A model generated the notes under the pieces. The model had not been told where the DNA came from. It ran no database searches and was given only the letters and a program-made list of their open reading frames with translations. 41,772 nucleotides of DNA from Spirochaetales bacterium (GTDB lineage Bacteria > Spirochaetota > Spirochaetia > SZUA-6 > JAFGRV01). A program made the translations under genes and the position numbers. The stretch is from the NCBI GenBank assembly GCA_016930085.1, contig JAFGHO010000026.1, positions 1 through 41,772 of the forward strand, in the 5' to 3' direction. Shown in pieces: positions 3,437 through 41,612 of the stretch (positions within the stretch are counted from its first letter, which is position 1; every line of letters begins with the position of its first letter).

Positions 3437-3442
3437 ATTAAT

Positions 3443-3567
3443 GAGAGCGTTTGCGTATATTATTGTAGAAAAAGCAGCGGTTCTGATACAATAGCCCAAA
3501 GGCAAGACGTGAGGCAGCCGCATAAAGCGGGGATTTATCCGGTTACCGGAAGAAAAAGGAGGCACCC
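3443..3567 (+). promoter_or_regulatory. Structured 5' leader of the PP2C phosphatase mRNA
   Basis: The predicted leader ends in three compact inverted repeats packed just before the ribosome-binding site: CCGC/GCGG around ATAAA, GGAT/ATCC around TT, and CCGG/CCGG around TTA, followed by AAGAAAAAGGAGG. The segment GGCAAGACGTGAGGC and the final GGTTACCGG recall parts of c-di-GMP-I riboswitches, but the conserved GCAAAGCC segment is absent. I therefore call it an unassigned structured leader that could control translation. Confidence 0.35.
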
Positions 3568-4674
3568 TTGGTTTTTCTTGTTGGTGATAACAAGAAGAAA
3601 CAAAAGAAGATAAGGCACGTCCTTGAGAAATCGAACATACGCTGCAAGGAAATCCCGTGGAATGAAATAAATATCGAAGAGGACGGACTGTATCTCTTTA
3701 TCTCTCCTCCCCAAAACAACAAGGCATTTTCCCTTTTCAACAGACTCCTCAAGAGAGAAAACATCATTATTACCCTGTTCAATAACCACAGAAAGGGAAT
3801 ACCGGAAAATAATCATTATCTCAACCTTCCCAGAGATACGAATGCATATATCCTGAAAGCCATTGTCAAATGGTCACTATCTCAAAAAATCCACACTTCC
3901 CGCCTGAAAAGCGCGAACGAACAGCTTAATTTGAGAAAACAGGAGATAGTGACCGAACTCACGCTTGCGAGCGAACTTCAGAAGAGTCTGCTTCCAAAGG
4001 AACTGCCAAAAGATCTCCCGATCAATTTTGTTCACCGCTATCTCCCCCATACATACATCGGCGGTGATTTTTTCGACATCATCCGTATCGATCAGGAGCA
4101 TGTCGGCATTATTATCGCCGATGTATCGGGGCATGGCGTTTCCGCCGCCTTTATCACAGCCATGTTTAAGAGTGTCTTCAATCATTACGCCTTCAGCGAG
4201 TATTCACCGTCTTCCCTCTTGAACAAAATGAATCAGGAGTTCGTCAACAATATCAAAGGCCATTATATAACGGGATTTTACGCAATAATCGACACCGGCC
4301 GCATGAAGTGTACCTATTGCAATGCCGGACATCCCCGTCAACTGATCTTTCATCGCAACGGCGATATCAGAGAATTGGGCTCCCCCGGCTTTTTTATCGG
4401 CATGTTCGAGACGACCGAGTTTGAAGACAGAATAATCGACGTCTATCCGGGTGACAGATTATTCTTCTTCACCGACGGCATTATCGAAGTTATCGACGCG
4501 GACAATTTACAGTTCGGCAAAAAAAATCTGATAAGACTAATCAGGGAAGGAAAGGAGGAAGATATCGTAAACCTTTCCAACAAGATTATTACCCATGTCA
4601 TGATGTACATGAAAGAAAATTTTTTCCCCGATGACATTACGGTTCTGATTGCCGAACTCATGGAAGATATATGA
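3568..4674 (+). CDS. PP2C-type protein phosphatase (RsbU/SpoIIE family)
   Basis: A 368-residue serine/threonine phosphatase with the metal-binding motifs GGDFFD (165-170), IADVSGHG (183-190), CNAGHPRQL, FFTDGIIE and the final DDITVL. A coiled stretch ending in LASELQKSLLPKELP precedes the catalytic domain, as in most RsbU-like proteins. Residues 1-105 begin MVFLVGDNKKK and look like a degenerate receiver domain: the fold pattern is suggested but a phospho-acceptor aspartate is not convincing. The likely substrate is a phosphorylated STAS protein such as the divergent one at 3004-3315. The start is TTG, chosen because AAAGGAGG ends 5 bases before it and no in-frame ATG lies nearby. Convergent with the amylase gene, 39 bases apart. 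Confidence 0.9.
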   Translation: MVFLVGDNKKKQKKIRHVLEKSNIRCKEIPWNEINIEEDGLYLFISPPQNNKAFSLFNRLLKRENIIITLFNNHRKGIPENNHYLNLPRDTNAYILKAIVKWSLSQKIHTSRLKSANEQLNLRKQEIVTELTLASELQKSLLPKELPKDLPINFVHRYLPHTYIGGDFFDIIRIDQEHVGIIIADVSGHGVSAAFITAMFKSVFNHYAFSEYSPSSLLNKMNQEFVNNIKGHYITGFYAIIDTGRMKCTYCNAGHPRQLIFHRNGDIRELGSPGFFIGMFETTEFEDRIIDVYPGDRLFFFTDGIIEVIDADNLQFGKKNLIRLIREGKEEDIVNLSNKIITHVMMYMKENFFPDDITVLIAELMEDI

Positions 4675-4713
4675 GAGGAAAATAATGCCGCCCACACATG
4701 GACCGGAATAATA

Positions 4714-7700: not shown

Positions 7701-8310
7701 TATCATCGAAAAGTTCAGCATAAGGCATGAAGGCGGGGTTGTTATTCGCGACCCATAAATTGATCATCTCTTCGAGAATCTGGTGCGTGTGAGATATCCC
7801 GGCCGTCTCGCCTATAATATATTCATTCAGACCCGTTTCACCTTTATATATTTTTACAGGCGGAAACTCCTGTGTAAATCCGTGTAACGTTTTTTCCAAT
7901 TTCTTTTTCCCGATCTTTTTTTCCAGGAAATCCATCGCTTTACCGATAATTTCGGGATTCTTTTCTTTTCGATAGAGATATATGATATAATGGAGAATTT
8001 CATCGATGAGTCCCATTGCGTTAAGCTGTCCCGCGCTGACGGCATCTTCCGGATGGTTTAGCAAATCTTTTTTTTCATTCATCTTGTGAGCAAATATCCT
8101 CACTTCGTTAAACCGTATGAGGACAACATTCCCCGACAATTCGAAAACGCTTTCATCAAACTCATATCGATCTCTTGCCGTCCTTGAAACATGAAACTCC
8201 ATTGTAAGATGAGGAATAGCCGTTTTGTTTGTTTGTTCCGATTCCAGTTTCGTAAAAAACAATTCAATCTTCAGGGACAAAGGACAATTCAATGGTAGCC
8301 TGCCTTTCAT
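4714..8310 (-). CDS. Large GH13 alpha-amylase-family protein
   Basis: A 1198-residue cytoplasmic-looking glycoside hydrolase/transferase with no signal peptide. The GH13 barrel lies in the middle (about 345-760). Conserved region I is DMVPNH (425-430), the nucleophile is D545 in IIRFDAAMT, the acid/base is E610 in LLLAEAF and the transition-state aspartate is D671 in MNNPDED. Region IV has NNPD instead of the usual NHD. About 310 residues precede the barrel and about 400 follow it, both mostly helical and unlike standard amylase domains, so the protein is two to three times the usual length. It overlaps the malQ stop by ATGA (8307-8310), so the two are translationally coupled and probably act together on maltodextrin or glycogen. 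Exact specificity cannot be read. Confidence 0.88.
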   Translation of the reverse strand: MKGRLPLNCPLSLKIELFFTKLESEQTNKTAIPHLTMEFHVSRTARDRYEFDESVFELSGNVVLIRFNEVRIFAHKMNEKKDLLNHPEDAVSAGQLNAMGLIDEILHYIIYLYRKEKNPEIIGKAMDFLEKKIGKKKLEKTLHGFTQEFPPVKIYKGETGLNEYIIGETAGISHTHQILEEMINLWVANNNPAFMPYAELFDDTKLRQHTAYKKIMELLHDFFDNEEPFGPDKQNLIDMIRSPAIASPNSLKGQIMYIIDKWGMLIGKFLFRLLSSLDFIREEEKMRGFGKPDFLPYDYSLESEYERFSADKDWMPNLVLIAKHTFVWLDQLSRKYGRSISRLDQIPDEELDTLARWGFTGLWLIGLWERSQASKLIKNHCGNPDAAASAYSVYDYNIAEELGGYDSLLNLRDRCWKRGIRLASDMVPNHTGIYSKWIREHPDWFIQLPYPPFPSYSFSGHNYSEDPRVGVYIEDHYYNRSDAAVVFKRVDFHTGETRYIYHGNDGTHMPWNDTAQLDFLNPEVRKAVINTIIHVAKLFPIIRFDAAMTLAKKHYQRLWFPVPGSGGDIPSRAEHGMGSEDFNRAIPIEFWREVVDTVAREAPDTLLLAEAFWLMEGYFVRTLGMHRVYNSAFMNMLKMEDNQKYRLTIKNTMEFDPEILKRFVNFMNNPDEDTAVAQFGKDDKYFGVCIMMVTMPGLPMFGHGQIEGYTEKYGMEYRRAYWEEQPDWQLVGRHEREIFPLLKKRYVFTHVRNFLLYDFYTPEGWVNENVFAYSNRNGMERGLVIYNNKYEYARGWIRASASFAVKSVSGDRHLVQKSIGEGLALRNEGNYFTIFKDYITGLQYIRNSKELWDCGLYVELSAFKYHVFLDFREVCDNEYRHYAQLNANLSGTGVYSIDEELKEIVLKSIFEALRSILNKEVLCGLREGKITSPDLPPDHTLPERVKEASLNFYNAIKDFCKSLRNVNDITEIMNMKLEQVQMIEVFFEMNGFPEKGKAKKMREYFAAIVTEKPDVYLTLYCWVFFHLIGYIIDDEKATFQARSWMDEWLFGKKIYLALVDSGMEPADAWHGVEIIKILISHQAWNDIKGPRKNHPYLFLYKLFQDEDVRNYLQVNRFEGILWFSKERFDSLLRWLFAVSCVQSTLFDKSERVKIVTDNYRIIEKCLEAENESSFRVEKLLDVLDEQGKKKGRITKHEK

Positions 8311-10292
8311 TTTTCATTTGGACTTTTTTTGAGACTTCGCCGTTTCCTTTCCATAAGAAGCCCGCGGAGATAGTCATTGAGTTTATCATAATTGATGAGA
8401 AACTCAAGCGTCGAATATATTCTGTATGACCAGTTTCGTTCCGTCACCGTTCCCGGAACATTTACCCGCTCATCTTCGGGACTTATAACACGCAATTCAT
8501 TGAAAAGGGAAAGAATATCCTGTATCTGAAAAATACAAAATATAGAGTTCGCACGAAGATTATTTTTAATGATCGCTTCGGCAATCGCCGGTGTGTATTC
8601 ATCCGTTTCAGCGGTTTTCAGCTTGATATGTTCGCAATATTTCTTTTTTTCTTCATCGGACATCTCCAGTTCCCAAAAGCCGCGTATCGTACTTGTATCG
8701 TGGACGGACGGTGTGCAGACGGATAATCGGGGATACTTCTCAACCGGTATATACGGCTGGCCCTGTTTGTCCCATTCACGCGTCCACCGTTCTATTTTGA
8801 GACTCAGTATCGAAAGACTCAGGAGTACTTCGGGAACACAACGGGGAACAGCCCCCAGATCTTCGGCGCACATAAACATACCCGTACTTTCTTTCAACAT
8901 TCCCAGGAGTCTGGTACCTTCTTTTGCCCATATCTTTTCGGCTTTTTTTTCATTTCCTTTTATCATTTCATCGATACTTTTTTTTTCATCGGGACTGAGG
9001 GATTTATAGGCCGTTGTCTCGTTAAAATTCCAGAGATGGTGAAACGTATTATCCGAAACACGTATAAGCGTTCTGTCCCTGTACCATTGCAGAAGATTTC
9101 TTTTTATGAAATTTTCTTCGTCGAGGTCCTCAATTATTCCTTCCCCGCAATATTCCGGTTTTAAATGATAGAGCGGCTCATTATTTATCTGATCCATATA
9201 TTGATCGATCACATACTCCGCCATTTCTCCCGTCTTCTGCACAATATCGTCCTTTATAATATGGGGGACACTCATCCACTTTATTCTCTCCGGTGCAAAT
9301 CCGGCCTTTTTCAGTTGATCGGAAGTGATATATTGCGTCGGATGGAAATAACCAAGTATACCGGTCGTTTCTTTGACCGGTATACGAAATATTCTGAAAA
9401 ATCCAAGGACATGATCAATTCTGTAACAGTGATAGAATTTCGCCGCCTGCCGTAATCGCATTCTCCACCAGAAATAATTATCTTTTTCCATCGCTGCCCA
9501 GTCAAATACCGGAAAATCCCAGTTTTGTCCCAGATGTGAAAACATATCCGGCGGTGCGCCCGCGGAAAAATCAAGATTAAAATATTTTCTGTACATCCAG
9601 ATGTCGGCGCTGTCTTCATTCATCATAATGGGAATATCGCCTTTGAGATATATCCCTGCCCGTTCGCAATAGAGCGTTGCCCGCTTTAGCTGGTTCTCAC
9701 AATGATACTGTACCCAGGAATGAAAATATGAGCCATCCGGATTTTCTTCCCAGCATGTCTCAATATCCTCTTTGGTCGGACTCTGCATAACCGGCCATGA
9801 TTTCCAGTGATTGAAGTTATATTTTTTTTTAAAATGATAATAGACTGCATACGGTTTTACCCATTGATTCTTTGCGATCCATTCCGTCACCTTTTCATCT
9901 TTCATTATCTGTTCTTTATTATCATAGAATATTTTCCATAGTAGTTCGAGTTTGAATGCCAAAACCCCCTCATAATCGACATGCGGTTTATTTTCACATG
10001 CCACCCTGAAATCCTTTATTTCTTTCCCGTATCGATCCGCACCCGGCACCATATCCAGCCGGATGTAAATGGGGTGAAGTGCAAGCGCACTCAACGCACT
10101 ATAGGGAGACCGTTCGCGGCCCGTATCGTTGACCGGCAGTATCTGAATAATCTCGAATCCGCAAACGGAACACCATTTCCCCAGAAGTTCAATATCGGTG
10201 AATTCACCGATTCCGCAACTCGATTCACTCCGCAAAGCGGATACGGAAACAGCAACACCAGTATAAAAATGATCCAGATCACCGAAATTCAC
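8307..10292 (-). CDS. malQ: 4-alpha-glucanotransferase (GH77, amylomaltase)
   Basis: A 661-residue GH77 enzyme that moves alpha-1,4-glucan segments between maltodextrins and releases glucose. The family signature ILPVNDTG...SPYSALSALALHPIYI is at 51-77. Catalytic residues are visible: nucleophile D293 in YRIDHVLGFFRIF, acid/base E477 in MCAEDLG, and D532 in SVHDTSTIRGFW. Length is in the longer GH77 group. The start is GTG, chosen because AGGGGGAG lies 6 bases upstream and the reading begins at the expected N-terminal pattern. It is first in a two-gene unit with the GH13 protein (4-base overlap). A perfect inverted repeat lies in its upstream region. Confidence 0.95.
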   Translation of the reverse strand: MNFGDLDHFYTGVAVSVSALRSESSCGIGEFTDIELLGKWCSVCGFEIIQILPVNDTGRERSPYSALSALALHPIYIRLDMVPGADRYGKEIKDFRVACENKPHVDYEGVLAFKLELLWKIFYDNKEQIMKDEKVTEWIAKNQWVKPYAVYYHFKKKYNFNHWKSWPVMQSPTKEDIETCWEENPDGSYFHSWVQYHCENQLKRATLYCERAGIYLKGDIPIMMNEDSADIWMYRKYFNLDFSAGAPPDMFSHLGQNWDFPVFDWAAMEKDNYFWWRMRLRQAAKFYHCYRIDHVLGFFRIFRIPVKETTGILGYFHPTQYITSDQLKKAGFAPERIKWMSVPHIIKDDIVQKTGEMAEYVIDQYMDQINNEPLYHLKPEYCGEGIIEDLDEENFIKRNLLQWYRDRTLIRVSDNTFHHLWNFNETTAYKSLSPDEKKSIDEMIKGNEKKAEKIWAKEGTRLLGMLKESTGMFMCAEDLGAVPRCVPEVLLSLSILSLKIERWTREWDKQGQPYIPVEKYPRLSVCTPSVHDTSTIRGFWELEMSDEEKKKYCEHIKLKTAETDEYTPAIAEAIIKNNLRANSIFCIFQIQDILSLFNELRVISPEDERVNVPGTVTERNWSYRIYSTLEFLINYDKLNDYLRGLLMERKRRSLKKSPNEK

Positions 10293-10621
10293 GTCTGACT
10301 CCCCCTGTCAATATTACCTCAAACCTTCCACTTCATTCTGCCGAAGCATCAACATACATTGTGCCGTTTATGTTGAATCATTTTTCGCTATAAAAGTCAA
10401 TAACGGATGACAATCCGCAGTTTTCGTGATTCCTCATCGAAAATAGATCGCGGAAGAATCAATGTAATTATATTCAAATAGGTAAAAAAATATAGTACTA
10501 TTTTCTGAAAAAAACTGATATTTTTATACATGGTGCATACCCCCCAAAAACAGGACACGCAGCGAGACTAGTCGGTTTTAACAGGGGCGGAAGGCCGGCT
10601 ACAGAGATCGATAAACGCCCG
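10293..10621. other. AT-rich intergenic region upstream of malQ
   Basis: A 329-base gap between two leftward genes. It holds the malQ ribosome-binding site, a perfect 8-base inverted repeat (10349-10376), a TTGACT on the minus strand (10395-10400) without a matching -10 at normal spacing, and an AT-rich block at about 10465-10535 with TATAAT on the minus strand (10467-10472) lacking a good -35. I see no gene or clear terminator in it. Confidence 0.6.
10349..10376 (-). promoter_or_regulatory. Inverted repeat in the malQ leader or promoter
   Basis: TCAACATA (10349-10356) and TATGTTGA (10369-10376) are perfect complements separated by 12 bases, about 57 bases before the malQ GTG. It could be an operator for a dimeric regulator or a hairpin in the leader. 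Confidence 0.4.
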
Positions 10622-11116
10622 TTATTTATATGAATCGAGCAGTGTCACGATTTCAGACGGCCGTTTGATCTCATCCGCTGCACCATTGACAAGTGAAACG
10701 AGTGAATCAACCGAGTACTTCCATGGCCGCGCAACGTCTTTGACAATGATATCGAGTTCCGCTTTATCAACGGATCTGTCGCAGCTCGCGATCATAAACA
10801 GCATAAGGAGGCAAATGTCGCGTTTCGCGGGATTCTCGATCGAAAGCAGCACATCTTTTTCATCCTGTGTCATATCACTCTGTTCTTCAATCGCCGCCTG
10901 TACCAGTTCTATTTTTTTCATCCATATTTCTTTTATTCCATCGGGCGTATCTTCTTTGACGACATCCAGAAGGGCCGGAATAAGGGTGAGAAGATTCCAC
11001 TCCTCGATGCCCGCGATACCGTCCGAATAAAGCAACCTGACCGCCATTTTAAAAAGGACGGTGAGTTCTTCCGACTCCAACTCGAGAACACGCAGGAGTA
11101 TCGGTTTGTTTTTCAT
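10622..11116 (-). CDS. TerB-like helical protein of unknown function
   Basis: A 164-residue, all-helical, soluble protein with no signal peptide. Two similar halves are suggested: MAVRLLYSDGIAGIEEWNLLTLIP near the start and MLFMIASCDRSVDKAELDIIVKDV near the end, both with the acidic D-G/D-R turn followed by a helix as in TerB/DjlA-type domains. TerB domains are linked to stress and membrane-associated signalling, but the exact role is unknown. GGAGGG lies 7 bases before the ATG. It is divergent from the chorismate mutase gene and 329 bases upstream of malQ. The domain call is from pattern only. Confidence 0.6.
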   Translation of the reverse strand: MKNKPILLRVLELESEELTVLFKMAVRLLYSDGIAGIEEWNLLTLIPALLDVVKEDTPDGIKEIWMKKIELVQAAIEEQSDMTQDEKDVLLSIENPAKRDICLLMLFMIASCDRSVDKAELDIIVKDVARPWKYSVDSLVSLVNGAADEIKRPSEIVTLLDSYK

Positions 11117-11190
11117 TATGCTACCCTCCCTCGTTTGTCCATAGATATATCCGAAAATCCATATATGCCGGCAAGCGACTCTTTTACTTC

Positions 11191-11243
11191 ACCTGCATAC
11201 AGGTAATAGTATGATACCTGTTCCGCCGTTTATTCAACAGGTA
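11191..11243. promoter_or_regulatory. Cluster of CAGGTA/TACCTG motifs between divergent genes
   Basis: ACCTG (11191), CAGGTA (11200-11205), TACCTG (11215-11220) and CAGGTA (11238-11243) lie within 53 bases, in the control region shared by the TerB-like and chorismate mutase genes. The middle pair forms an inverted repeat with a 9-base spacer. A possible operator; the binding protein is unknown. Confidence 0.35.
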
Positions 11244-11323
11244 TTTGTGTTTTTCGACTGGAAAAAATCGAGAAACCTTGTTAGATTATATCCGAAATGC
11301 GTTCGTATTGAGGAGTAGAAAAG

Positions 11324-12052
11324 ATGGAACTCGATATTATTGCCGCTAAACTCGAAGGCCTCGAAGAGACGATCATACACCGTCTTATCGACAGGGCACA
11401 ATTCCGCTTCAATGAAATAATATATCAGGAAGGGATGAGCGGTTTTGAAGGTTCTCAGGGCATGAGTCTTCTTCACATCCGGCTGCGATACCAGGAAGAA
11501 ATGGATGCTCTTTTCGGCCGGTATCGCCAACCGGAAGAACGCCCTTTCTGCGGAAACCCCGGCGATCCCAGACGGCTTGTTTCAATCCCGGATTCGGAAT
11601 TGAGGATTGAGGATTATGATAAAGTGAATCTTACAAAGGAAATAATGGAAAGCTATATCGCGCTTGTCACCAAAATCTGCAGACCGGGTGACGACAAACA
11701 ATACGGCTCGAGTGTCGTCGCAGATGTGTACGCCCTTCAGGCGATAGCCGAACGCGTCCATTATGGTTCCCTCTATGTCGCCGAATGCAAATTTCAGAAA
11801 AATCCCGAACGCTACAAGAAGCTTATTTCCTCGGGTGACACAAAGGCGATTACGGATGCCCTTACCAGAAAGGAAGTGGAGGATAAGATAATGGACCGAA
11901 TCGTTGACAAGGTTTTCTATATTCAGGCAAAGGTAAACAGGGAGATCCGTCATGTCATCGATCCCAAAGTGATCCGGGAATATTACCGGCACTACATCAT
12001 TCCACTCACAAAAGAGGGCGAAACACGGTATCTCCTTAACCGCATCATTTAA
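11324..12052 (+). CDS. aroQ: Eukaryotic-type chorismate mutase (AroQ-beta)
   Basis: A 242-residue all-helical enzyme that converts chorismate to prephenate for phenylalanine and tyrosine synthesis. It is not the 90-residue bacterial form but the fungal/plant form. By eye it follows that family throughout: LEGLEETIIHRLIDRAQF (11-27), RYRQPEERPF, DDKQYGSSVVADVYALQAI, ERVHYGSLYVAECKF with R144 and K156, VEDKIMDRI, and the C-terminal YIIPLTKEGETRYLLNRI with K230 and E233. These line up with active-site residues of yeast chorismate mutase (R157, K168, K243, E246, from memory). Whether the allosteric tyrosine/tryptophan site is kept cannot be judged. GAGGAG lies 8 bases before the ATG. The 3' end overlaps the convergent cupin gene by 8 bases. 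Confidence 0.9.
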   Translation: MELDIIAAKLEGLEETIIHRLIDRAQFRFNEIIYQEGMSGFEGSQGMSLLHIRLRYQEEMDALFGRYRQPEERPFCGNPGDPRRLVSIPDSELRIEDYDKVNLTKEIMESYIALVTKICRPGDDKQYGSSVVADVYALQAIAERVHYGSLYVAECKFQKNPERYKKLISSGDTKAITDALTRKEVEDKIMDRIVDKVFYIQAKVNREIRHVIDPKVIREYYRHYIIPLTKEGETRYLLNRII

Positions 12053-20335: not shown

Positions 20336-21910
20336 TTATTTTCCCGTTTTTTTCACGAGCCGTTCTTCGAGGAAAAATTTTCCGTTTTCACGCTTTTCCA
20401 GATTTTTGTCGCTGAGACTTGTTCCGCACACCATTGCCAACCGTGATACCGCGAGTTTGTAACGGACAATGGTATCCATCTCGTTTTGTCTTGCATCGAA
20501 CAGTTCCTCTTCTGCCTCATAGACCAGCCGGCTGTTGCTGTATCCGGCTTCAAGACGTGATAACTCGACATCGAGCAATCGTTGCTTCACTCCCACCACT
20601 TTTTTCATGTTTTCTCTTCGTTTTGAAAGGGTTTCGATATGCTGCAACAGCATTGTGATCGCATTGACCACCTCATACTCCGTCGCTTCGAAATTTTTCT
20701 CACTTATGTGCTTCTTTAATTGTGCGGCCTCACGCTGGTTGTTTCGTGAAATACTTCCAAAAAGCGGCACCTGAAGTTCGAGCTTCAACGACCATGAGGG
20801 ATTCGTCTGATCAAAGGTCATATGTATCGAATCCTCGAAAGAACCGCCCATGCCCGTCAGATTATAGTTGCCGATGACATTCAAGACCGGCAGGCACTGG
20901 TCTTTGTAATAATTCAAGGCAATCGATTCCCGCTCCACTTCGTTTTTTCGTATGAGATAATCGGGGTGCATACTGACGATCGTCTCCATGATTTCCATTT
21001 TTTCGAGACCCGAAGGTTCTTCGACGGAAAAAAGGGAATCCATTGCGATCAGTTCCCGATCCTCGTTAAGACGGTAATCCGCAACAAGCAGTCTCAATTC
21101 CGTCATCGCACTCATAATGTTTTGTTCGCTTTCGGCAAGGGCGATTTCCCGTAACGCAAGCCCCGCTTCCGCTTCGGTGAACTCAAGTTGCGACATCTTT
21201 CCCGTTTTGACACGCTCTTCCGCATCTTTCACGAGTTTTTTCGCGATATCTACCGAGTCCAGATGTATCTGATACAACTCCTGAGCGAATGCGAGGTTCC
21301 AGTATGCGGCCTCGACCTGCGTAATTGTCTCCATAAGCTGTTTTCTGTACTTGTGAAAGGCGATAATCCTCTCCCTGTTTGCGACATTGATCCCGGCACG
21401 CGGCGCGCCGCGCGTCGCACCCCTGAGAAGGGGCTGTTCCAGTGTAATACCGATATATGTATTATATTCATGATCGGAAGCGTACGTGCTTTTTTTCTTG
21501 TTCAGCGTATAACCGATATTATATGTCGAACCGGTCGGCGTTTTGCCTTCAATGCCCAAAGCGTATTCTTCAGTGTCCTCAAAATATTCGGTATTCCCCA
21601 GTTGCTCAATAGTCTCCTTGATGTTGTTTCTGTGATTGAAGTCCTGAAGGCTGTAATAGCCGACAATATTCGGCTCAAACTGGCCCCATTCGGCATTGAC
21701 ATTCCTGGTCGCAATCAGCCACTCCAAACGGGTTTCTTCGACTAAAGGATTCAATCTGACTGCCGTCTCCACCGCATCGGCCAGCGTCATTTCCCGTTTT
21801 ACCTCATCAACGGCGCTTTCCTCCGCGTACAGGAAAACATTCGTAATCGTAATGAGAAATATACAGATGGTAATCAGCCACATTACATTTATTTTCATGA
21901 TATTCTTCAC
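20336..21910 (-). CDS. TolC-family outer-membrane efflux channel
   Basis: A 524-residue outer-membrane channel with a signal peptide (VMWLITICIFLITITNVFLYA) and two repeats of the OEP pattern: MTLADAVETAVRLNPLVEETR... early and the helical half with SIALNYYKDQCLPVLNVIGNY later. TolC trimers form a tunnel through the outer membrane and periplasm, linked to the inner membrane by HlyD-type adaptors. It lies divergent from the adaptor row at 22065-26974, with 136 bases between the long reading frames, so it is the natural exit duct for that system. Start GTG 21910 lacks a ribosome-binding site; ATG 21898 is an alternative. A TATAAT lies on the minus strand at 21932-21937, without a good -35. Confidence 0.9.
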   Translation of the reverse strand: MKNIMKINVMWLITICIFLITITNVFLYAEESAVDEVKREMTLADAVETAVRLNPLVEETRLEWLIATRNVNAEWGQFEPNIVGYYSLQDFNHRNNIKETIEQLGNTEYFEDTEEYALGIEGKTPTGSTYNIGYTLNKKKSTYASDHEYNTYIGITLEQPLLRGATRGAPRAGINVANRERIIAFHKYRKQLMETITQVEAAYWNLAFAQELYQIHLDSVDIAKKLVKDAEERVKTGKMSQLEFTEAEAGLALREIALAESEQNIMSAMTELRLLVADYRLNEDRELIAMDSLFSVEEPSGLEKMEIMETIVSMHPDYLIRKNEVERESIALNYYKDQCLPVLNVIGNYNLTGMGGSFEDSIHMTFDQTNPSWSLKLELQVPLFGSISRNNQREAAQLKKHISEKNFEATEYEVVNAITMLLQHIETLSKRRENMKKVVGVKQRLLDVELSRLEAGYSNSRLVYEAEEELFDARQNEMDTIVRYKLAVSRLAMVCGTSLSDKNLEKRENGKFFLEERLVKKTGK

Positions 21911-22005
21911 TATGTTAAGGGATTGCTCTTCATTATAATAAAAAAAGCATATTAAAGGAAGGTGTTTGCAACGATTTTAGGAGATTAGTTCACACGAATT
22001 TATCC

Positions 22006-22034
22006 TTTACAAACCGGTAAACCTGTGATATAAT
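22006..22034 (+). promoter_or_regulatory. Strong promoter of the adaptor/SecA-like gene row
   Basis: TTTACA (22006-22011), a 17-base spacer and a perfect TATAAT (22029-22034) with an upstream TG of an extended -10. Transcription would start near 22041. Confidence 0.7.
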
Positions 22035-22064
22035 GGCGCTAAATCCGTGGAGAAAACTTATACG

Positions 22065-24820: not shown

Positions 24821-26974
24821 ATGGAAGAAAGCAAGCTTTTTCACGAATCATGGTACAGAATCGCGGGACAACGAATCAGTCTGAGATCGTGTATAAAAGT
24901 AAACAGGCAGTTGTACCGCGGATCGCGCTGGTATGTGCTTCAGGATCCCTTCTCCAATCAATTTTACAGGATACGGCCGTCAGCATACAATTTCATTTCA
25001 CGCCTTTCGCTGAACCGAACCGTCGAGGAAGTATGGAAAGAGGTTATTGCCGAAAATCCCGACGACGCCCCCGGACAGGAAGACGTGATCAATCTCCTCG
25101 CGCAGCTTTATCACGCAAATCTGCTTCATTATTCACTTCCCGCGGACAGCGAAAAACTTTTTGAACGGTATAAAAAACAACAGCAAAAGGTGACACAGGC
25201 GACACTTTCGAATATTATGTTTTTCCGTATACCTCTTTTCGATCCGGATAACATACTCAAAAGAATACTTCCCGTATTGCGCGCCATAATAAGTCCTGTC
25301 GGTCTAATTATATGGGCTGTCGTCATCGGGATGGGGATAAAGGTCGCAATCGAAAACATCCGGGAACTCGGCGTCCAGAGTCAGGGCATTCTCGCCCCAG
25401 CGAACATCCCCCTTCTCTATCTTTCGTTTATCTTTATAAAGGCGCTGCATGAGTTCGGGCACGCCTTTGCCGTGCGCCGGTATGGGGGAGAAGTCCATAC
25501 GATGGGAATCATGTTCCTGATTTTCAACCCCATTCCCTATATGGACGCGACCGCCGCATGGTCGTTCAGAAACAAATGGAAGCGCGTCCTTGTGGGAGCG
25601 GCGGGGATGATATTCGAGTTGTTCATCGCCGCGATTGCGGCAATAATTTGGTCCAATACGGGACCGGGCGTTCTCCATTCACTTACCTACAATATTATTT
25701 TTGTCGCGTCGGTTTCGACGATTCTGTTCAACATCAACCCGCTTTTGCGCTTTGACGGTTATTACATTCTCTCCGATCTTCTCGATATTCCGAATCTCCA
25801 TACCCAGGCGACCCGGCATCTGCGGCATCTTGTCGAACGGTATGCGTTCGGATATAAAAAATCGACGACTCCGGTCTCTTCCATGAAAGAAGCGGTCCTG
25901 ATTACGATTTTCGGGATATTGAGCGGTATCTACCGTATCGTTGTATTCACGACGATCCTCCTCTTTGTCGCCGACCGGTTCCTGCTTTTGGGGATTATCA
26001 TGGCCGTTGTATGCGCCGTCTCATGGATTCTGGTCCCCGCCGTGCGGTTCATCAAGTATTTGTTCACCGAACCCCGCCTCGACCGGACAAGAATAAGGTC
26101 CATACTGGTAAGTCTTGGCGCTGCCGTCACCGTTTTTCTTTTTTTGTCCGTCATTCCCTTTCCCCATACCTTTACCTCGCCGGGTGTCATAAAAGCATAT
26201 GAATACATGAAAGTGACAAACAAGGTGGGCGGTTACGTGTCGGATATTACAATTCCTTCGGGAAATTGGGTTAAAAAAGGCCAGACCCTCTTTTACCTGA
26301 AAAACAGGGAACTCGATTTTAAAATAAGGGAAATGTCCGCCAAGATCGACGAAATATCGATTATGGGACAAAAGGCATTGCATGAAAGCCTCGCGGATGT
26401 AAAACCGATCAACAGCCTTCTCGCCGCGATCAACGAACGCTACGATCGTCTTGAAGAAGACATACGGGATTGCGAAGTGAAAGCGGAGATCGACGGCGTC
26501 TGGGTCGCCCCGTATATCGACGAGTTGAAAGGAATGTGGATCCACCGGGGAACCCCGATCGGCCAGCTTATCAATAATTCGGGATTCTTTTTCAGTTCCG
26601 TCATCTCCCAACAGGAGGTTTCGGGTTTTTTCTCCGATGAAATCAAATCCGCCGAGGTCAGATTGTACGGAGAATCGGATAAAGCCGTCCGGATCAGCGG
26701 TTTCACGATCATACCTGCGGAACAGACCTCCCTGCCTTCTCCGGCACTCGGTCTTGCCGCCGGCGGCGAGGTTACCATCGATATAAAGGATCAAAGCGGC
26801 ACCAAAACGACGGAACCCTTCTATGAGGTGAGACTCACCATAGCCGAAGATAGTCTCGGCGGCCTGCTTCACGGGCGTACGGGCCGTGTCCAATTCAGGC
26901 TGCCCATGGAACCCCTGCTGCAGCAGTGGTGGATTAAACTTATTCAGCTCATACAGAAACGATATCAGCTGTAA
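24821..26974 (+). CDS. PqqD-like / M50 site-2 protease / HlyD fusion
   Basis: A 717-residue membrane protein of four parts. Residues about 20-110 resemble a PqqD-type peptide-binding domain (YRGSRWYVLQDPFSNQFYRI, VEEVWKEVIAEN). Residues about 150-430 are a multi-helix M50 metalloprotease with the zinc motif HEFGH (210-214) and the third ligand D312 in NPLLRFDGYY. More helices follow, then from about 440 a HlyD-like adaptor (SPGVIKAYEYMKVTNKVGGY, NWVKKGQTLFYL). Proteases of this group cleave in or near the membrane; PqqD domains bind leader peptides of modified peptides. Both metal motifs look intact. The ribosome-binding site is weak. It sits between the GAF adaptor and the SecA-like gene, which argues for one machine. 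Confidence 0.87.
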   Translation: MEESKLFHESWYRIAGQRISLRSCIKVNRQLYRGSRWYVLQDPFSNQFYRIRPSAYNFISRLSLNRTVEEVWKEVIAENPDDAPGQEDVINLLAQLYHANLLHYSLPADSEKLFERYKKQQQKVTQATLSNIMFFRIPLFDPDNILKRILPVLRAIISPVGLIIWAVVIGMGIKVAIENIRELGVQSQGILAPANIPLLYLSFIFIKALHEFGHAFAVRRYGGEVHTMGIMFLIFNPIPYMDATAAWSFRNKWKRVLVGAAGMIFELFIAAIAAIIWSNTGPGVLHSLTYNIIFVASVSTILFNINPLLRFDGYYILSDLLDIPNLHTQATRHLRHLVERYAFGYKKSTTPVSSMKEAVLITIFGILSGIYRIVVFTTILLFVADRFLLLGIIMAVVCAVSWILVPAVRFIKYLFTEPRLDRTRIRSILVSLGAAVTVFLFLSVIPFPHTFTSPGVIKAYEYMKVTNKVGGYVSDITIPSGNWVKKGQTLFYLKNRELDFKIREMSAKIDEISIMGQKALHESLADVKPINSLLAAINERYDRLEEDIRDCEVKAEIDGVWVAPYIDELKGMWIHRGTPIGQLINNSGFFFSSVISQQEVSGFFSDEIKSAEVRLYGESDKAVRISGFTIIPAEQTSLPSPALGLAAGGEVTIDIKDQSGTKTTEPFYEVRLTIAEDSLGGLLHGRTGRVQFRLPMEPLLQQWWIKLIQLIQKRYQL

Positions 26975-27018: not shown

Positions 27019-29010
27019 ATGTATTTTTTAACCAGGGATTATCAACGAAGCACCATAAAAACACCTCCCCCCCTCCTGAAAGGCCTCGATGCATGGCTGC
27101 ATTCATTTGTCGGGACATATATGAGAACGGGACATGATATCGTCCGTACATATCTTCAGGAAGCGGAAGCAATCGATTCGCGGCAAACATACTGGCATAA
27201 TCTTTCACAGGAAACCCTTCATAAACATCTGATGCATTTGAAGGAAAGCTTCAGGCGGCGTGAACGGGGATACAGGCTCCGGCTACCCGACGCCCTCGGG
27301 GCGATTCGGGAAGCGGCGCTTCGTACGCTGGGTCTTAAGCCTTACGTCGTACAATTGACCGGCGCCCTGACTCTCTACAACGGGCATGTAGCGGAAATGG
27401 CGACAGGTGAAGGAAAAACACTCACCGCCGCCATGGCCGGCATCCTTTACGGCTGGAGCGGTCTTCCCTGCCACATCATCACCGTCAACGATTACCTCGC
27501 CGAACGTGATAAAAAATGGATGAACCCCCTTTACCGGTTTTGCGGAGTGACCGCGGGACATGTCGGGAGTGAAATGGAACCGGCCGAACGAAGGGAAGGA
27601 TACCACAACGATGTCGTTTACACGACGAGCAAGGAAATCGTCGCCGATTTTCTCAGGGACCGACTCTGGCTGGGGACGCTTCAAAAAACCGGGAGGCGTC
27701 AAATCGCGTGGTTTTTGGGACGCCAGAGAAACATCGAGCAAGGGCTTGTTATGCGGGGTCTGCATTCCGCAATTGTCGATGAAGCGGACAGTATCCTCAT
27801 CGATGAAGCGGTCACCCCCCTCATCATTTCGAAGGCGACGAGTAATGAATCCTTTATCGAAGCGTGCCGGCTGGCGTATGCCATAGCGGACGGTCTTGTA
27901 CGAGGCAAGGATTACAAGGTCGACATCAAATTCAGGGATATCGAGTTTATAAAAGATATTTCAGGACTCATCGCAGAGAAGGTAAAAGACTCCGGATGTG
28001 CATTCAAAAGCACGAGCGGCTATAACGAACTGGTTCATCAGGCCCTGATCGCCAAAGAGTTCTTTCACAGGAACAAGGAATACATTATCCAGGAAGAACA
28101 GGTGGTCATCGTCGACGAGTTTACGGGCAGACAGATGCCCCAGAGGAAATGGCGGGCCGGTATTCATCAATTCGTCGAAGCAAAGGAAGACCTTCCCGTG
28201 ACTTCACCGACCGAAACATTGGCGCGTTTGAGTTTCCAGCGCTTTTTTCGCTTTTTTCACAACCTCGCGGGTATGACGGGAACGGCAAGGGAATCCGCCC
28301 ACGAACTATGGGATATATACGAATTGACGGTCGCGACGGTGCCGGAAAACAAACCCTGTATACGGAAAGAATATCCCGTTGAGGTTTTTCCGGATCAGGA
28401 ATCCAAGTGGCGGGCGATTGTTCATGAAATCAGTGAAATGCATAAACTCGGCAGGCCGGTTCTCATCGGAACGCGCAGTGTAAAAGCGAGTGAAGCCCTT
28501 GCCGAGCGGCTGGAAAAGGAGAAACTCACCTATCAACTTCTCAACGCAAAGAACCACAAGAAAGAAAGCATGATTGTCGCACAGGCGGGAGAACCCGGTA
28601 CCATCACCATCGCGACAAATATGGCGGGGAGGGGTACCGATATAAGACTCGGCAAGGGTGTTGCCGAACGGGGCGGATTACATGTTATCGCTTCGGAATG
28701 TCATGAATCAAAAAGGATCGATCGCCAGCTTTTCGGCCGGTGTGCACGCCAGGGAGATCCGGGAAGCTCCCGTCTCTTTGTCAGCATGGAAGATGAATTG
28801 GTTGAGCGATACGCACCGAGGTCATTGAGGGAACTGATAAAGTGGCAGGTGGGTAATGCAATACCCGGTTCACGATTCGCGGGAAAACAGGCGATTCAAT
28901 GGGCACAGTGGACGGCGCAGTCAATCGCTTATAAAAGGCGGCGGTCGGTGCTCAATATGGATACATGGCTCGATGATTCTCTTTCGTTTGCACTCAAAGA
29001 CATCCAGTAG
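27019..29010 (+). CDS. Short SecA-like translocase ATPase
   Basis: A 663-residue SecA-family motor. Walker A is ATGEGKT (128-134), Walker B is VDEAD (253-257), with AGMTGTARESAHELWDIY, TNMAGRGTDIRLGKG and FGRCARQGDPGSS, all intact, and a preprotein-cross-linking domain between the two Walker motifs and helicase half 2. The usual housekeeping SecA is 800-950 residues. Here the chain ends after SVLNMDTW, where SecA normally reads on through a helical wing, two-helix finger and zinc tail; these parts are missing. The first 85 residues are unlike ordinary SecA. It is therefore an accessory or specialised motor, and its position behind three adaptor genes suggests it drives export through them. 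Spacing to the previous gene is 44 bases. Confidence 0.9.
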   Translation: MYFLTRDYQRSTIKTPPPLLKGLDAWLHSFVGTYMRTGHDIVRTYLQEAEAIDSRQTYWHNLSQETLHKHLMHLKESFRRRERGYRLRLPDALGAIREAALRTLGLKPYVVQLTGALTLYNGHVAEMATGEGKTLTAAMAGILYGWSGLPCHIITVNDYLAERDKKWMNPLYRFCGVTAGHVGSEMEPAERREGYHNDVVYTTSKEIVADFLRDRLWLGTLQKTGRRQIAWFLGRQRNIEQGLVMRGLHSAIVDEADSILIDEAVTPLIISKATSNESFIEACRLAYAIADGLVRGKDYKVDIKFRDIEFIKDISGLIAEKVKDSGCAFKSTSGYNELVHQALIAKEFFHRNKEYIIQEEQVVIVDEFTGRQMPQRKWRAGIHQFVEAKEDLPVTSPTETLARLSFQRFFRFFHNLAGMTGTARESAHELWDIYELTVATVPENKPCIRKEYPVEVFPDQESKWRAIVHEISEMHKLGRPVLIGTRSVKASEALAERLEKEKLTYQLLNAKNHKKESMIVAQAGEPGTITIATNMAGRGTDIRLGKGVAERGGLHVIASECHESKRIDRQLFGRCARQGDPGSSRLFVSMEDELVERYAPRSLRELIKWQVGNAIPGSRFAGKQAIQWAQWTAQSIAYKRRRSVLNMDTWLDDSLSFALKDIQ

Positions 29011-29286: not shown

Positions 29287-29844
29287 ATGAAAAAAACCTG
29301 TTTGCTTTTATTATGTGTTTTGATCTTCATTCCGCATATTTTCGCCCAGGAAGAGGTGGCACCGGTTACTTTTTTGTTCGGACCACGGGTCGGTGTCTCA
29401 GCGGTAATTCTGGATCAAGATGATTTCAATGATCAAATCCAGAAGATCATATCAAGCGACGACAAATATTTTCCCGTCTTCACCGAAATCGGATTCAGCA
29501 GCCAGCAGCAAATCGATCTCGGCGATTCGAATAATTACCTCGTGATCGAACAAAACATCTTCATAAGCGGTCTTGATCAGCGTTTCGCACTTCCCTTTAT
29601 CACATTGCTCATGTGTTATCGAATGGACATCGGTCTCGAAGCGGGCATCGGTCCTTTCTTCAGTTTTTTCAATGATACGGCCGAAAGACTCCAGATGCAA
29701 TTCGCTTTAACCTACAGCCTGGGCTGGAATTTCAAGGGGAAAAATTTCTCCGTTCCGCTTAATCTCTATTTTATCCCTTATCCCAGTTACGGAAATCCCC
29801 GGTTTACGTTTACGGCGGGAATAAATTTCGAAGTCAAGGATTAA
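29287..29844 (+). CDS. Small outer-membrane beta-barrel candidate
   Basis: A 185-residue exported protein. The signal peptide is clear (KKTCLLLLCVLIFIPHIFAQ) with AxA-like cleavage before EEVAPV. The mature part alternates hydrophobic and polar residues and has barrel-like strands: FLFGPRVGVSAVIL, FTEIGFSSQQQI, MDIGLEAGIGPFFSFF, FALTYSLGWNF, and a last strand FTFTAGINFEVK. No known family is recognised. AAGGAG lies 6 bases before the ATG. It stands behind its own promoter after the SecA-like gene, so it may or may not belong to the export system. Confidence 0.7.
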   Translation: MKKTCLLLLCVLIFIPHIFAQEEVAPVTFLFGPRVGVSAVILDQDDFNDQIQKIISSDDKYFPVFTEIGFSSQQQIDLGDSNNYLVIEQNIFISGLDQRFALPFITLLMCYRMDIGLEAGIGPFFSFFNDTAERLQMQFALTYSLGWNFKGKNFSVPLNLYFIPYPSYGNPRFTFTAGINFEVKD

Positions 29845-38015: not shown

Positions 38016-41000
38016 TTATAATTTTCCGAGTATCGCGATCGTCGCCAGGTGAAACAGGACCGCATAAACCAGAAGCACGGCCACATTGTAGCGGATCGTC
38101 AAAAAAGTGAACCGCCCCCATACCTTTTCATGTGCCGGAAAAATATTCATGTCCCTCAGCCAGAGCGATACATCCCCCGTCCTGCGGTGTTTGATCATGG
38201 CGAGCCATGCCGGCGTCCGCGCGACGGCGAGTTCTTTATGGACCGCCTCGTTTACCTCATAAAGGTAATATTTCGTGTAAAACCCGTTCGGCCCGGCTTT
38301 TTGAAAAATCGCTTCTATCTCGGCCTTTTCGGACGCCATGAGGCCGCTTCTCAGACGATAGATGGCGTTGTCCGGGTCTTCAGTGTAGTAGGAAGCGAGT
38401 TTTTCGGCTCGTTCGGGATATTCGGTCTCCAATTTCTCAAGAAGCCGGCCCGTAAAGGTGTCTGAAGATATCCTCGCGGGGATTTCCCCGGCCGGCGCCC
38501 CGGAAAGCCGCCTGAGCGGGGTGTATATCAGGCGGTCACTGTCCCAGCCGCCGCCATTGTCCCTTTCATACGCCTTTTTGATCGTCATGATATGATCGGT
38601 ATCCGTGACCTGATACAGGGGATTCAAATACTCGCTCGCGGAAAGAAATCCTTCATACGACCATCGGGCAAAGGTAAGGTTGGAATAAAGGGGAATTTCC
38701 TTGTTGACGAGTTTGCCCATATCGGAGAAGTCGACAAACATACCCCCGAAAATGATCTGGGGAATGATGATGAGCGGGATGATGTTGAACGCGGCGAGCT
38801 CGCTCCGGAGAAGCGATGAAACGAGCAGCCCGAGCGCGAAGGACACATAGGTGGTGACGAATCCCATGAGAAGGAAATAGAAAAAGGAATTGGAGACCGG
38901 AAGGTGCGCCAGTTCGGGAGGAAGCGAGACGGGAATCCGGAGGATGATGAATCCCGGGATAAGGTAGAGACATACCTGGAGAAACGCGAACAAAGAAAAG
39001 GTAATCGCTTTGGAAACGAGATACTGCCACGGTTTTATATCCACGATCTTTTCGCGGATCAGCATCGGCCTGTCCTTGATGACTTCGTTCACACTCGACA
39101 TCAGTCCGAAAAAAATAAAAATGATCGCGGAAAGGAAGAGGTATTTGGTCAGCTGGGTATTGGAAAAATACATATACGGTTCGCCCCCGCCCCTGAGGAG
39201 AAATGCGAGTATGAGTCCGAGAGTGAGGGGAACGAGAAAGGTCATCACCATGTTGGTCAGGTCCTTCCGCTTTTCCGCGAATGTCCGCCTGAAGAGGGTC
39301 AGAAGAATACCGAGCTTTACGGCAAAAGGGCGCTTTACCGCCGGCGGGAGTCCGCCTGCCGCCTCTCCCGCTTCACCGGCCCCTCTGTTCGCGTCCGCTT
39401 CCCCCGCCGCCTGTTTGGACAGATAAAGCTGTTTCCAGTAATCGGGTTCATACCGGCGGACGGGGACCGGAACGGATTTCGGCCGCCGGAACAGCTTCCG
39501 GAATATCCCGGCGACTCCCCTTCCCCACTCCTCCTTTTCCCTGTAGAGAGGAAGACCGTCTTTTCCCGATTCCTTTTTTTCGAGGACATTGAAAATAATC
39601 TCCGGATTCACGTTTCCGCAGGACGGGCATTCGATAAAATCGTCGCGCACCGGAAAGAATTGCTTGAAATACCCGATCGCTTTCATGCTGTCGCCGTAGT
39701 ACGCGAGTTTGCCCCCGACATCGAGGAGAAGCAGCTTGTCGAACTTCTTGTAGATCTCGGAGCCGGGCTGGTGAATGACGACGAACACGATCTTTCCCTT
39801 CTTTGAAAGTGATGAGAGAAGGGAGATGATCATCTCCGAATCCTTTGACGAGAGTCCCGATGTCGGTTCGTCGAGGAAAAAAAGGTCGGGATCGGAAAGC
39901 AGTTCGAGACCGATATTGAGCCGCTTTCGCTGGCCCCCGCTCAAAACCTTCTGAACGGGGCTTCCCACTTTCAGATTTCTTTTGTCGAGCAGCCCGATAT
40001 CCTTTAGCACGGTCTGTACGAGGTAATCGATTTCCCTTCCGGACTTTTCCGGCATCCTTATTTTTGCCGCATACTTCAGATTTTCATACACCGAGAGATT
40101 TTCCAAAAGCAGATCATCCTGCGGCACGTACCCGATATAGTGCCGGACCCTGTCGAAATTGGCGAAAAAATCCTCTCCATTGACGAGCACCCTTCCGCCG
40201 GAAGGCCGGTAATATCCCAGCAGCAGTTGAAGCAGGGTGGATTTCCCCGCGCCGCTTGCCCCCATGAATCCGACGAGTTCTCCGCTTTTCGCCTCAAAGG
40301 ACACATCGTCGATCCCGATCCTCCCGTTTTTAAACCGGTAGGAGAGACGGTCGACGGTAAACCTGTTGAAATGGACGAATGAGGTGACGATCTTTCCCGT
40401 TCCGGTATTGAAAAGCAGGCGGTTTTTTCCGATGGTCAGCGTCGAGTCGCGATCGATCGAAACGGATTGCCCCTCTTTCACTTCTTCGGAACCGAGATAA
40501 ACGGGATACGGCAGTTTTTCGGCGGACAACGTAAAATGCACGGCCTCATCGCGCCTGTGCGGGGTGATGGTCAACGACAATGGTTTTTCCGACATATCAT
40601 CGATATAAATATCCGCGCACTGATCCCGGTCGCTGATAACGAGGGTATTTTTTTCCGGTGTAACCTCCTTGAGGGCATAGGTATCACGGGTTTCCGAAAG
40701 AATTATCTCCCGCAACGGGATCCTGAAACCGCCGGCGAGTACCACGATATCGTTCAGATTGACAAAGGAGAAATCTTCGACATCGGTCCGATTAATGACA
40801 AGCGATATCCCGGAAGACGTATTTTTGTACAATCGAATGATATTGGCGTCGATATCCATTCTGAAATCGGCCTCTGAAAAGGAAATCTTTTTTACCATAT
40901 TCCCGTTTTCATAGGCAAAATATATCCGTTTCGTGTAATTGTTGCGCTTGAGTCTGAAAAAGAGGTGAATATCCGCGAGACGGACGTCCTTATCGCCCAG

Positions 41001-41612
41001 CGAAAGCGTCTTCCTCCCGTGAAGCGGGACGATCTGCCCGTCGTGCACCAGTTCTTCATCGATAAACACGCGGGATGACGAGCGTTTGTTGACGAGAAAG
41101 AAATTCTCCCTGATATCGAATATTTCGACATTGCTTCCGGGATAGATGAGATCGAAAGTGTGGGGATCGCCGCCAAAAGAAATTTTCCTGTTTACGTTCC
41201 CGATATATTCGTACTGATATGCGTCGACCAGCAGGCTTTTTATCAGGTCCGAATCCTCTGCGGAAATGGAAAAAAAACCGCATATATTGTCGAAAAGGCC
41301 GAGTTCACTCTCCGTAATACCGTCCGCGCCGAACAATTCATATATTTTTATCAGAAGCACGATCTTCCGCCGGTAATCCTCCCCATACGCCTTGTTGACA
41401 TTGTCGATGATCGATTCGAGGACGGGTTCTTCCTTTAACGCGGAAAGGAAACCGTTGAACACCTCTTCAGCGACATCCTTGGGGTAATATTCCCTGATAT
41501 ATTTGCTGAAAAAATCGATCTCCTGATCGGATACCTTGCCGTCCGCCTGAATGACATAAGCCATAAGCCGGACGAGATTGAGATGCTCCAGACCCGCGTT
41601 CTTGTCTTCCAT
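38016..41612 (-). CDS. ABCG-type transporter with TerB and FHA-like domains
   Basis: A 1198-residue fusion. Residues 10-130 form a TerB-like helical domain (MAYVIQADGKVSDQEID, YELFGADGITESELGLF). Two FHA-like beta modules follow (about 140-220 and 325-400, with LVNKRSSSRVFID and TLVISDRDQCADIYID), which in other proteins read phosphothreonine. The ATPase has Walker A GASGAGKST (451-459), signature LSGGQ (557-561), Walker B DLFFLDE (576-582) and H614. A CPSCG pair (662-666) and a linker lead to six or so membrane helices (about 800-1195). ABCG proteins move lipids or small molecules. GGAGG lies 9 bases before the ATG. The final helix ends at the stop. Confidence 0.88.
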   Translation of the reverse strand: MEDKNAGLEHLNLVRLMAYVIQADGKVSDQEIDFFSKYIREYYPKDVAEEVFNGFLSALKEEPVLESIIDNVNKAYGEDYRRKIVLLIKIYELFGADGITESELGLFDNICGFFSISAEDSDLIKSLLVDAYQYEYIGNVNRKISFGGDPHTFDLIYPGSNVEIFDIRENFFLVNKRSSSRVFIDEELVHDGQIVPLHGRKTLSLGDKDVRLADIHLFFRLKRNNYTKRIYFAYENGNMVKKISFSEADFRMDIDANIIRLYKNTSSGISLVINRTDVEDFSFVNLNDIVVLAGGFRIPLREIILSETRDTYALKEVTPEKNTLVISDRDQCADIYIDDMSEKPLSLTITPHRRDEAVHFTLSAEKLPYPVYLGSEEVKEGQSVSIDRDSTLTIGKNRLLFNTGTGKIVTSFVHFNRFTVDRLSYRFKNGRIGIDDVSFEAKSGELVGFMGASGAGKSTLLQLLLGYYRPSGGRVLVNGEDFFANFDRVRHYIGYVPQDDLLLENLSVYENLKYAAKIRMPEKSGREIDYLVQTVLKDIGLLDKRNLKVGSPVQKVLSGGQRKRLNIGLELLSDPDLFFLDEPTSGLSSKDSEMIISLLSSLSKKGKIVFVVIHQPGSEIYKKFDKLLLLDVGGKLAYYGDSMKAIGYFKQFFPVRDDFIECPSCGNVNPEIIFNVLEKKESGKDGLPLYREKEEWGRGVAGIFRKLFRRPKSVPVPVRRYEPDYWKQLYLSKQAAGEADANRGAGEAGEAAGGLPPAVKRPFAVKLGILLTLFRRTFAEKRKDLTNMVMTFLVPLTLGLILAFLLRGGGEPYMYFSNTQLTKYLFLSAIIFIFFGLMSSVNEVIKDRPMLIREKIVDIKPWQYLVSKAITFSLFAFLQVCLYLIPGFIILRIPVSLPPELAHLPVSNSFFYFLLMGFVTTYVSFALGLLVSSLLRSELAAFNIIPLIIIPQIIFGGMFVDFSDMGKLVNKEIPLYSNLTFARWSYEGFLSASEYLNPLYQVTDTDHIMTIKKAYERDNGGGWDSDRLIYTPLRRLSGAPAGEIPARISSDTFTGRLLEKLETEYPERAEKLASYYTEDPDNAIYRLRSGLMASEKAEIEAIFQKAGPNGFYTKYYLYEVNEAVHKELAVARTPAWLAMIKHRRTGDVSLWLRDMNIFPAHEKVWGRFTFLTIRYNVAVLLVYAVLFHLATIAILGKL

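Follow-up and report, generated by a model that had tools for sequence, protein, structure and literature searches.

A PqqD-like, M50 protease and adaptor fusion in a Spirochaetales genome points to a probable export module for giant LEPR-XLL proteins

Related secretion systems

Loci in which a secondary SecA_DEAD protein is encoded together with M50, HlyD and GAF-HlyD proteins were reported by Kamneva, Poudel and Ward in 2015 (PMC4452313). They proposed a type-I-like secretion in which the M50 protein might form the pore, and termed the broader role of the locus "completely unknown". Methylobacterium extorquens AM1 is among the carriers of the module named there. The legend of figure 3 admits proteins of more than 1,000 amino acids in these loci, and no cargo is stated in the accessible portions of the paper. 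The terms PqqD, LEPR and giant do not occur in its main text, and no other paper was found in a literature search for SecA_DEAD and HlyD together.

The locus examined here lies in a stretch of 41,772 nucleotides (hereafter the window) of a Spirochaetales bacterium genome (contig JAFGHO010000026.1, assembly GCA_016930085.1). As far as the accessible text of PMC4452313 describes it, the Kamneva locus resembles the module of the window in combining SecA_DEAD without SecA_SW, M50, HlyD, GAF-HlyD, sometimes an outer-membrane channel, and no ABC transporter. In the window, SecA_DEAD likewise occurs without most or all of the scaffold/wing region, genes for M50, HlyD and GAF-HlyD proteins adjoin it, and the module has no ABC gene. 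The SecA-like ATPase, which the initial annotation of the fusion does not mention, is the core of the only published description of the module that was found, as judged from the same portions of the paper. This locus type has been described before but not characterised, and the present analysis adds to it an RRE-like domain, conservation of the catalytic residues, a candidate link to LEPR-XLL proteins, an apparent pairing of tag and machine, a second subtype, and members in the Spirochaetota and other phyla.

Several better-described systems share individual features with the module. Type I secretion (HlyB-HlyD-TolC, with giant adhesins such as SiiE and LapA) has in common with it TolC, HlyD-type adaptors and very large repeat-protein cargo. 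In contrast, the ABC inner-membrane component of type I systems was found neither in the module of the window nor, with one query domain, in those of 80 loci (the best of at least 566), and the module has a SecA-like ATPase and an M50 fusion. Type I cargo is recognised by a C-terminal signal, whereas the tag of the candidate cargo described below is N-terminal. The daptide protease MpaP (NF041824) and the YydH/LiaK epipeptide protease (NF058609) are, like the fusion, intramembrane HExxH proteases. However, the fusion falls below both cut-offs (169.3 bits for 300 and 33 bits for 225, respectively), the two models, of 379 and 246 positions, leave no room for an adaptor, and no peptide gene was found at the module. 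Like SecA and the accessory SecA2, the SecA-like ATPase contains nucleotide-binding and preprotein cross-linking domains with GEGKT and DEAD motifs, but it stops well before the C-terminal end of SecA.

Genetic organization of the module

The module of the window comprises a divergent TolC gene followed by genes for HlyD, GAF-HlyD, the 717-aa fusion, the SecA-like ATPase and a 185-aa protein (Table 1). The TolC partner that the initial annotation had foreseen for the fusion is thus present as an adjoining gene. The 185-aa product had no match in Pfam or NCBIfam, and a relative is encoded 3' of the SecA-like gene in both close module-bearing relatives (G025 and G039).

Table 1. Features of the module and of the candidate cargo gene; positions are those of the window unless a contig is named
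Feature	Position	Strand	Basis
TolC-family outer-membrane channel, divergent	20336..21910	-	OEP 136.8 bits
TolC/HlyD divergent intergenic region	21911..22046	.	promoter-like TTTACA-17-TATAAT, 22006-22034 (+), consensus match only
HlyD/RND-type adaptor, 280 aa	22047..22889	+	Pfam, NCBIfam
GAF - HlyD adaptor, 613 aa	22903..24744	+	Pfam
PqqD/RRE-like - M50 - HlyD/AcrA-like adaptor fusion, 717 aa from ATG	24821..26974	+	ORF, Pfam, model
PqqD/RRE-like domain, residues 20-110	24878..25150	+	sub-gathering Pfam PqqD; domain model, fold search
Membrane part, residues 159-444, seven hydrophobic helices	25295..26152	+	model helices, hydropathy, RseP match
HEFGH zinc motif, residues 210-214	25448..25462	+	H210, E211, H214 identical in 86/86
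NINPLLRFD, ending at D312, the predicted third zinc ligand	25730..25756	+	alignment
Periplasmic adaptor domain, residues 445-717	26153..26971	+	MacA/AcrA/MexA fold matches, best Z 16.5
SecA-like ATPase, 663 aa; GEGKT (130), DEAD (254)	27019..29010	+	Pfam, NCBIfam, 3jv2_A alignment
Small protein, 185 aa, family not assigned	29287..29844	+	relatives behind SecA-like gene in G025, G039
LEPR-XLL protein, at least 3,998 aa, cut by contig end	G000:C76 (L027) 1-11994	-	sole NF012209 match of the window's genome

Residues 44-651 of the SecA-like ATPase align to positions 21-606 of the 783-residue SecA chain 3jv2_A, and since the alignment ends there, the C-terminal part of SecA is missing. Pfam gave no SecA_SW match, the score against TIGR00963 is 593 bits for a cut-off of 800, and neither the scaffold/wing region nor the two-helix finger of a complete SecA was found in the 663-aa protein. 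By the usual domain limits of SecA, the missing regions are those by which SecA grips SecY and the chain. The canonical SecA of this genome is encoded elsewhere (G000:C69).

The only ABC gene noticed in the window (38016-41612, minus strand) encodes a 1198-aa protein with TerB, ABC ATPase and ABC2 membrane domains. An ORF with an alpha-amylase domain at 4714-8310 is of equal length and has no domain in common with it.

Architecture of the fusion protein

Pfam searches with the 717-aa protein revealed, in this order, PqqD (residues 38-102), Peptidase_M50 (residues 201-278; 24.5 bits for a gathering threshold of 27.2) and lipoyl/HlyD domains (from residue 462; 13-14 bits). Because all Pfam scores of this single sequence lie below the curated cut-offs, an alignment and structure checks were added. 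The AlphaFold2 model (79 sequences, pLDDT 87.7) exhibits three domains, running from a small strand-and-helix domain through seven hydrophobic helices to an adaptor with a helical hairpin. Domain order, alignment, model and fold matches all bear out the three-part protein of the initial annotation: a PqqD/RRE-like domain, an M50 protease and an AcrA/MacA-like adaptor are joined in a single product. In NCBIfam, the daptide protease model NF041824 comes closest, with an alignment over residues 28-404.

The PqqD-like start received a mixed answer from the two checks proposed for it, structure prediction being favourable and the profile score, at 20.8 bits for a Pfam gathering threshold of 23.4, unfavourable. 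Among 60 fusion sequences, six matched the PqqD profile at E 0.001. Folded separately, residues 1-120 gave a pLDDT of 82.9, and the four top Foldseek matches of the domain alone were leader-bound RRE domains (TbiB1, lasso B1; probability 1.00, E 0.016-0.021), with no match at E 0.001. Structural comparison gave a Z score of 8.2 with the PqqD NMR structure 5sxy (rmsd 2.4, 87 aligned) and of 8.9 with lasso B1 (6jx3_B). Since segments of unrelated enzymes reach comparable values (GdmN, 9.4; Rv2067c, 8.8; MINA53, 7.6), these scores support a PqqD/RRE fold without proving the exact family. PqqD was absent among the matches listed for the whole 717-aa model, these being taken up by adaptors, and against PDB sequences the domain profile reached PqqD (3g2b, residues 18-102) at E 0.2 only. 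Overall, the middling scores support a predicted three-strand, three-helix fold like that of PqqD/RRE structures.

The residues expected for catalysis are strictly conserved. All 86 aligned sequences have H210, E211, H214 and D312, together with N304, N306 and P307; this alignment includes the window protein and omits truncated copies and two of the 87 full-length sequences. Residues 192-324 of the model match RseP (7w6y) with a Z score of 10.3 (rmsd 3.0, 130 aligned), and the arrangement of M50 site-2 proteases, an HExxH within a membrane helix and a distant Asp ligand, is present. The initial annotation had predicted an active zinc protease from HEFGH and D312, and these data support an intact active site that is predicted to be catalytically competent. 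They also bear on a reading in which the LEPR-XLL giants described below are the cargo, but the M50 protein acts mainly as a conduit or scaffold and cuts something else or nothing. We regard this as rather unlikely: the module has no ABC transporter that could be found, and a pore role for the M50 protein was proposed in the accessible text of PMC4452313, yet a pure scaffold would not need the 86 identical sets of catalytic residues, and an RRE-like domain presumably located in the cytoplasm suggests substrate reading.

At the other end of the protein, model residues 448-696 match MacA/AcrA adaptors (best match Z 16.5, rmsd 4.2, 219 aligned), in agreement with the HlyD-like end first annotated. 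We infer an N-in/C-out topology: with the N-terminus inside, seven helices would place the adaptor in the periplasm and HEFGH near the cytoplasmic side.

Distribution and conservation of the module

Named genomes were scanned for relatives of the fusion, and the best 80 of at least 566 confirmed relatives were kept. These belong to Spirochaetales, Elusimicrobia, Gemmatimonadetes, Nitrospirota, Verrucomicrobia, Planctomycetota, Fibrobacter, Proteobacteria and others. Of these 80 best loci, 74 have a SecA-like ORF, which in 56 lies directly downstream of the fusion; three of the six loci without it have at most 154 bp of downstream sequence. A GAF-HlyD-like ORF is likewise present in 74, directly upstream of the fusion in 67, and one of the six loci lacking it has only 165 bp upstream. 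HlyD was detected in 57 of the 80 and TolC in 40. ABC ATPase-like ORFs, searched with one query domain, were found in four of these loci, always with a start at least 5.8 kb away from that of the fusion gene. DUF3467, found in 11 of the same 80 loci and absent from the genome of the window at E 0.001, was rejected as a required partner. Closer to the window, full-length fusions occur in three of 61 relatives' genomes, its own included, and in one of 296 genomes of the phylum, again its own, with partial matches in two more. This distribution suggests a widespread, barely studied bacterial export machine whose fusion protein is rare in the phylum of the window.

The GAF-HlyD partner and the RseP-like protease core raise the possibility of regulated intramembrane proteolysis, in which the M50 part would cut GAF-HlyD or another regulator and so control the export of surface proteins. 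This seems improbable to us, as six of the 80 best loci have no GAF-HlyD match (including the one with little upstream sequence) and the pairing of tag variant with M50 subtype described below would be left unexplained.

SecA-like proteins of the module are annotated as 'prepilin peptidase' on two plasmids (L017 21068-23092; L035 22216-24132), where they are probably misnamed.

Candidate cargo of the module

The initial annotation had proposed a leader-bearing peptide as cargo and suggested looking for short genes with shared leaders near homologues. BLAST clustering of 1,932 small ORFs from 90 loci revealed no recurrent leader-peptide family, although very short or divergent peptides could escape this search. 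Most of the recurrent small-ORF clusters resemble, by eye, out-of-frame shadows of conserved genes. Recurrent small genes near the module are those for DUF3467 and for a family of about 85 aa found in four loci (L096, L098, L099 and L107; e.g. L107 7057-7308). The latter is likely a real gene but not leader-peptide-like, and its L107 copy has no NCBIfam match. The same annotation had held that an absence of small leader-bearing genes from homologous loci would speak against its proposal, and for peptides this is largely what the 90 loci returned. Maturation and export of a small, RiPP-like peptide is therefore a reading to which we give very little credence: the daptide protease is indeed the nearest NCBIfam model and the N-terminal domain has an RRE-like fold, but at 169 bits the membership cut-off of 300 is missed, the small ORFs yielded no recurrent leader-peptide gene, and giant LEPR proteins track the module instead. 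The leader-bearing part of the earlier idea stands, with a LEPR-XLL N-terminus co-occurring with the module, and the small peptide does not; the idea was right in kind and wrong in size.

On plasmids, the module adjoins genes for proteins about 4,000 to 13,000 aa long. LEPR-XLL is the annotation of three such proteins, which led to a genome-wide search with the LEPR-XLL model NF012209. The genome of the window gave a single match (30.2 bits for a cut-off of 17), and module and LEPR-XLL gene sit on different contigs (Table 1). At E 0.001, this genome is the only one with LEPR-XLL among 296 genomes of the phylum and among the 61 relatives. LEPR-XLL was detected at the same threshold in 43 of 50 fusion-bearing genomes versus none of 14 controls. 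The 50 correspond to the first 51 of the best 80 of at least 566 loci, one duplicate bin being omitted, and as they were drawn from close relatives of the window protein, 43 of 50 is not an unbiased rate. In these 50 genomes, LEPR-XLL open frames reach 18,012 codons. At E 10, this short motif also gave matches in seven of the 14 controls, once above the cut-off. Seven of the 50 genomes had no match at E 0.001. G025, assembled as one contig with a full module and a 62% identical protein, has no LEPR-XLL at E 0.001 and three weak matches at E 0.48-2.18, and the module-bearing relative G039 has no match. Incomplete assemblies and divergent tags may account for some of the module genomes without LEPR, though not clearly for all.

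A search for cargo within the window itself was negative, the only LEPR-like string of the scan lying in a reverse frame close to stops. The C76 protein also carries a DNA/RNA non-specific endonuclease domain (residues 600-811).

Module subtypes and tag variants

The link was further examined in one family of 299 genomes, in which LEPR was found in 44 and the fusion protein in 72 (three best first-look candidates scored per genome). Fusion proteins of this family fall into subtype I, scoring above 400 bits with the profile matched from its first residues, and subtype II, scoring 252-369 bits (best per genome) and mostly matched from about residue 38; the 400-bit border was chosen after the score gap was visible. 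LEPR occurs in 38 of 44 genomes with subtype I, in six of 28 with subtype II only, and in none of 227 with neither (Fisher p 2e-35 for subtype I versus the rest, relatedness not corrected). For 46 of 57 LEPR starts, one of the 77 fusion genes is found on the same contig; the distance is at most 60 kb for 41 starts, and all 41 are on the strand of the fusion gene. For the six subtype I genomes without LEPR, no substitute motif was found around the fusion gene in three, one of these contigs being only 9.4 kb long. Co-occurrence and gene position make a strong case that the LEPR giants are the predicted cargo of the module.

The form of the tag varies with that of the machine. Thirty-nine distinct N-termini from subtype I and LEPR loci begin with a short, often basic start, followed by residues like LExLEPRxLLSADP, a few reading LEQR or LEPK in place of LEPR; the core LEPR pattern was part of the search that gave these sequences. 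All five subtype I plasmid giants whose N-terminus was read contain [LMI]EPRxLL (the L020 and L035 giants are outside this count). Subtype II cargo starts instead with residues like LALEPRxMFDAA. The pattern LE[PSA]Rxx[FY]D[GA][AS] is seen at seven of 10 subtype II plasmid loci, two of them with LESR or LEAR, and the six LEPR hits of subtype-II-only genomes, weak at E 1e-5 to 9e-4, all read LEPRx[LM][FL]D[GA]A. A scan of the loci for tags with F in position seven gave hits at subtype II loci only; many of the subtype I stretches do not reach the cargo start. The motif was not found in the three remaining subtype II plasmid loci: the giant of Azospirillum TSA2s was read from its annotated start, a HrpK-domain gene lies next door in Phyllobacterium, and Tistrella has no ORF above 1,500 aa within the stretch. 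The correspondence between tag form and machine form is the strongest hint that the tag may be read by a component of the machine.

In Alisedimentitalea, the annotated start of the giant (L023 ~7225, minus strand) misses an in-frame LEPR motif upstream.

Proposed export route

With moderate confidence, we read the module as a TolC-linked export system that works without an ABC transporter and whose cargo is giant proteins with an N-terminal LEPR leader. The cytoplasmic PqqD/RRE-like domain would bind this leader, a short start followed by roughly [FY]x[LV]ExLEPRxLLSADP, as its fold likeness suggests. The M50 site, near the cytoplasmic side, would then probably clip the leader close to the LEPR motif, given its conserved catalytic residues and its likeness to leader-cutting M50 proteases. 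Judging from folds and gene neighbourhood, the C-terminal adaptor and the HlyD and GAF-HlyD adaptors would together join the inner membrane to TolC. The truncated SecA-like ATPase would push the chain, and its conserved ATPase motifs are consistent with a supply of force; because it lacks the regions presumed to grip SecY and the chain, this motor role is a guess. The inner-membrane path may be provided by the M50 part, SecYEG or another component. In the genome of the window, the cargo would be the LEPR-XLL protein of contig C76.

More tentatively, the module could constitute a distinct system, in which RRE-like leader reading and intramembrane cutting act on proteins of up to megadalton size, a SecA core without SecYEG-engaging parts supplies the power, and the M50-adaptor protein forms the inner-membrane gate to TolC. 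Neither the cargo link nor the reader domain or the tag pairing was found in a literature search from which preprints and most subscription papers were excluded, and in the accessible parts of the papers searched no export route was found stated for the LEPR-XLL giants. Joining these giants to an orphan machine would give each a testable partner, and the N-terminal LEPR tag could serve cargo prediction in many phyla. If so, leader reading as seen in peptide natural products would extend to giant proteins.

Related loci

A second PqqD-M50-like protein of 567 aa, 28% identical over residues 37-442, is encoded in the genome of the window on contig C61 (L032 6915-8618, minus strand). Its gene adjoins adaptor-, ABC ATPase- and permease-like genes by eye, and probably belongs to a different type of system. 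An E. coli IncF plasmid (L041, L159) carries genes for an M50-adaptor, TolC, adaptors and an Ig-like protein of about 4,460 aa, with no SecA-like gene in the stretch seen; related genes were found in 18 Escherichia and eight Citrobacter plasmid records. Four subtype II loci (L033, L163, L164 and L166) combine a giant DUF4347 or Ig-like protein with TolC, adaptors and an M50-adaptor, and genes annotated 'tail fiber protein' occur in their vicinity, in Kosakonia as three consecutive genes. The DUF4347 protein BTH_II1339 of Burkholderia thailandensis is listed as raised in stationary phase in the accessible portion of PMC12322963.
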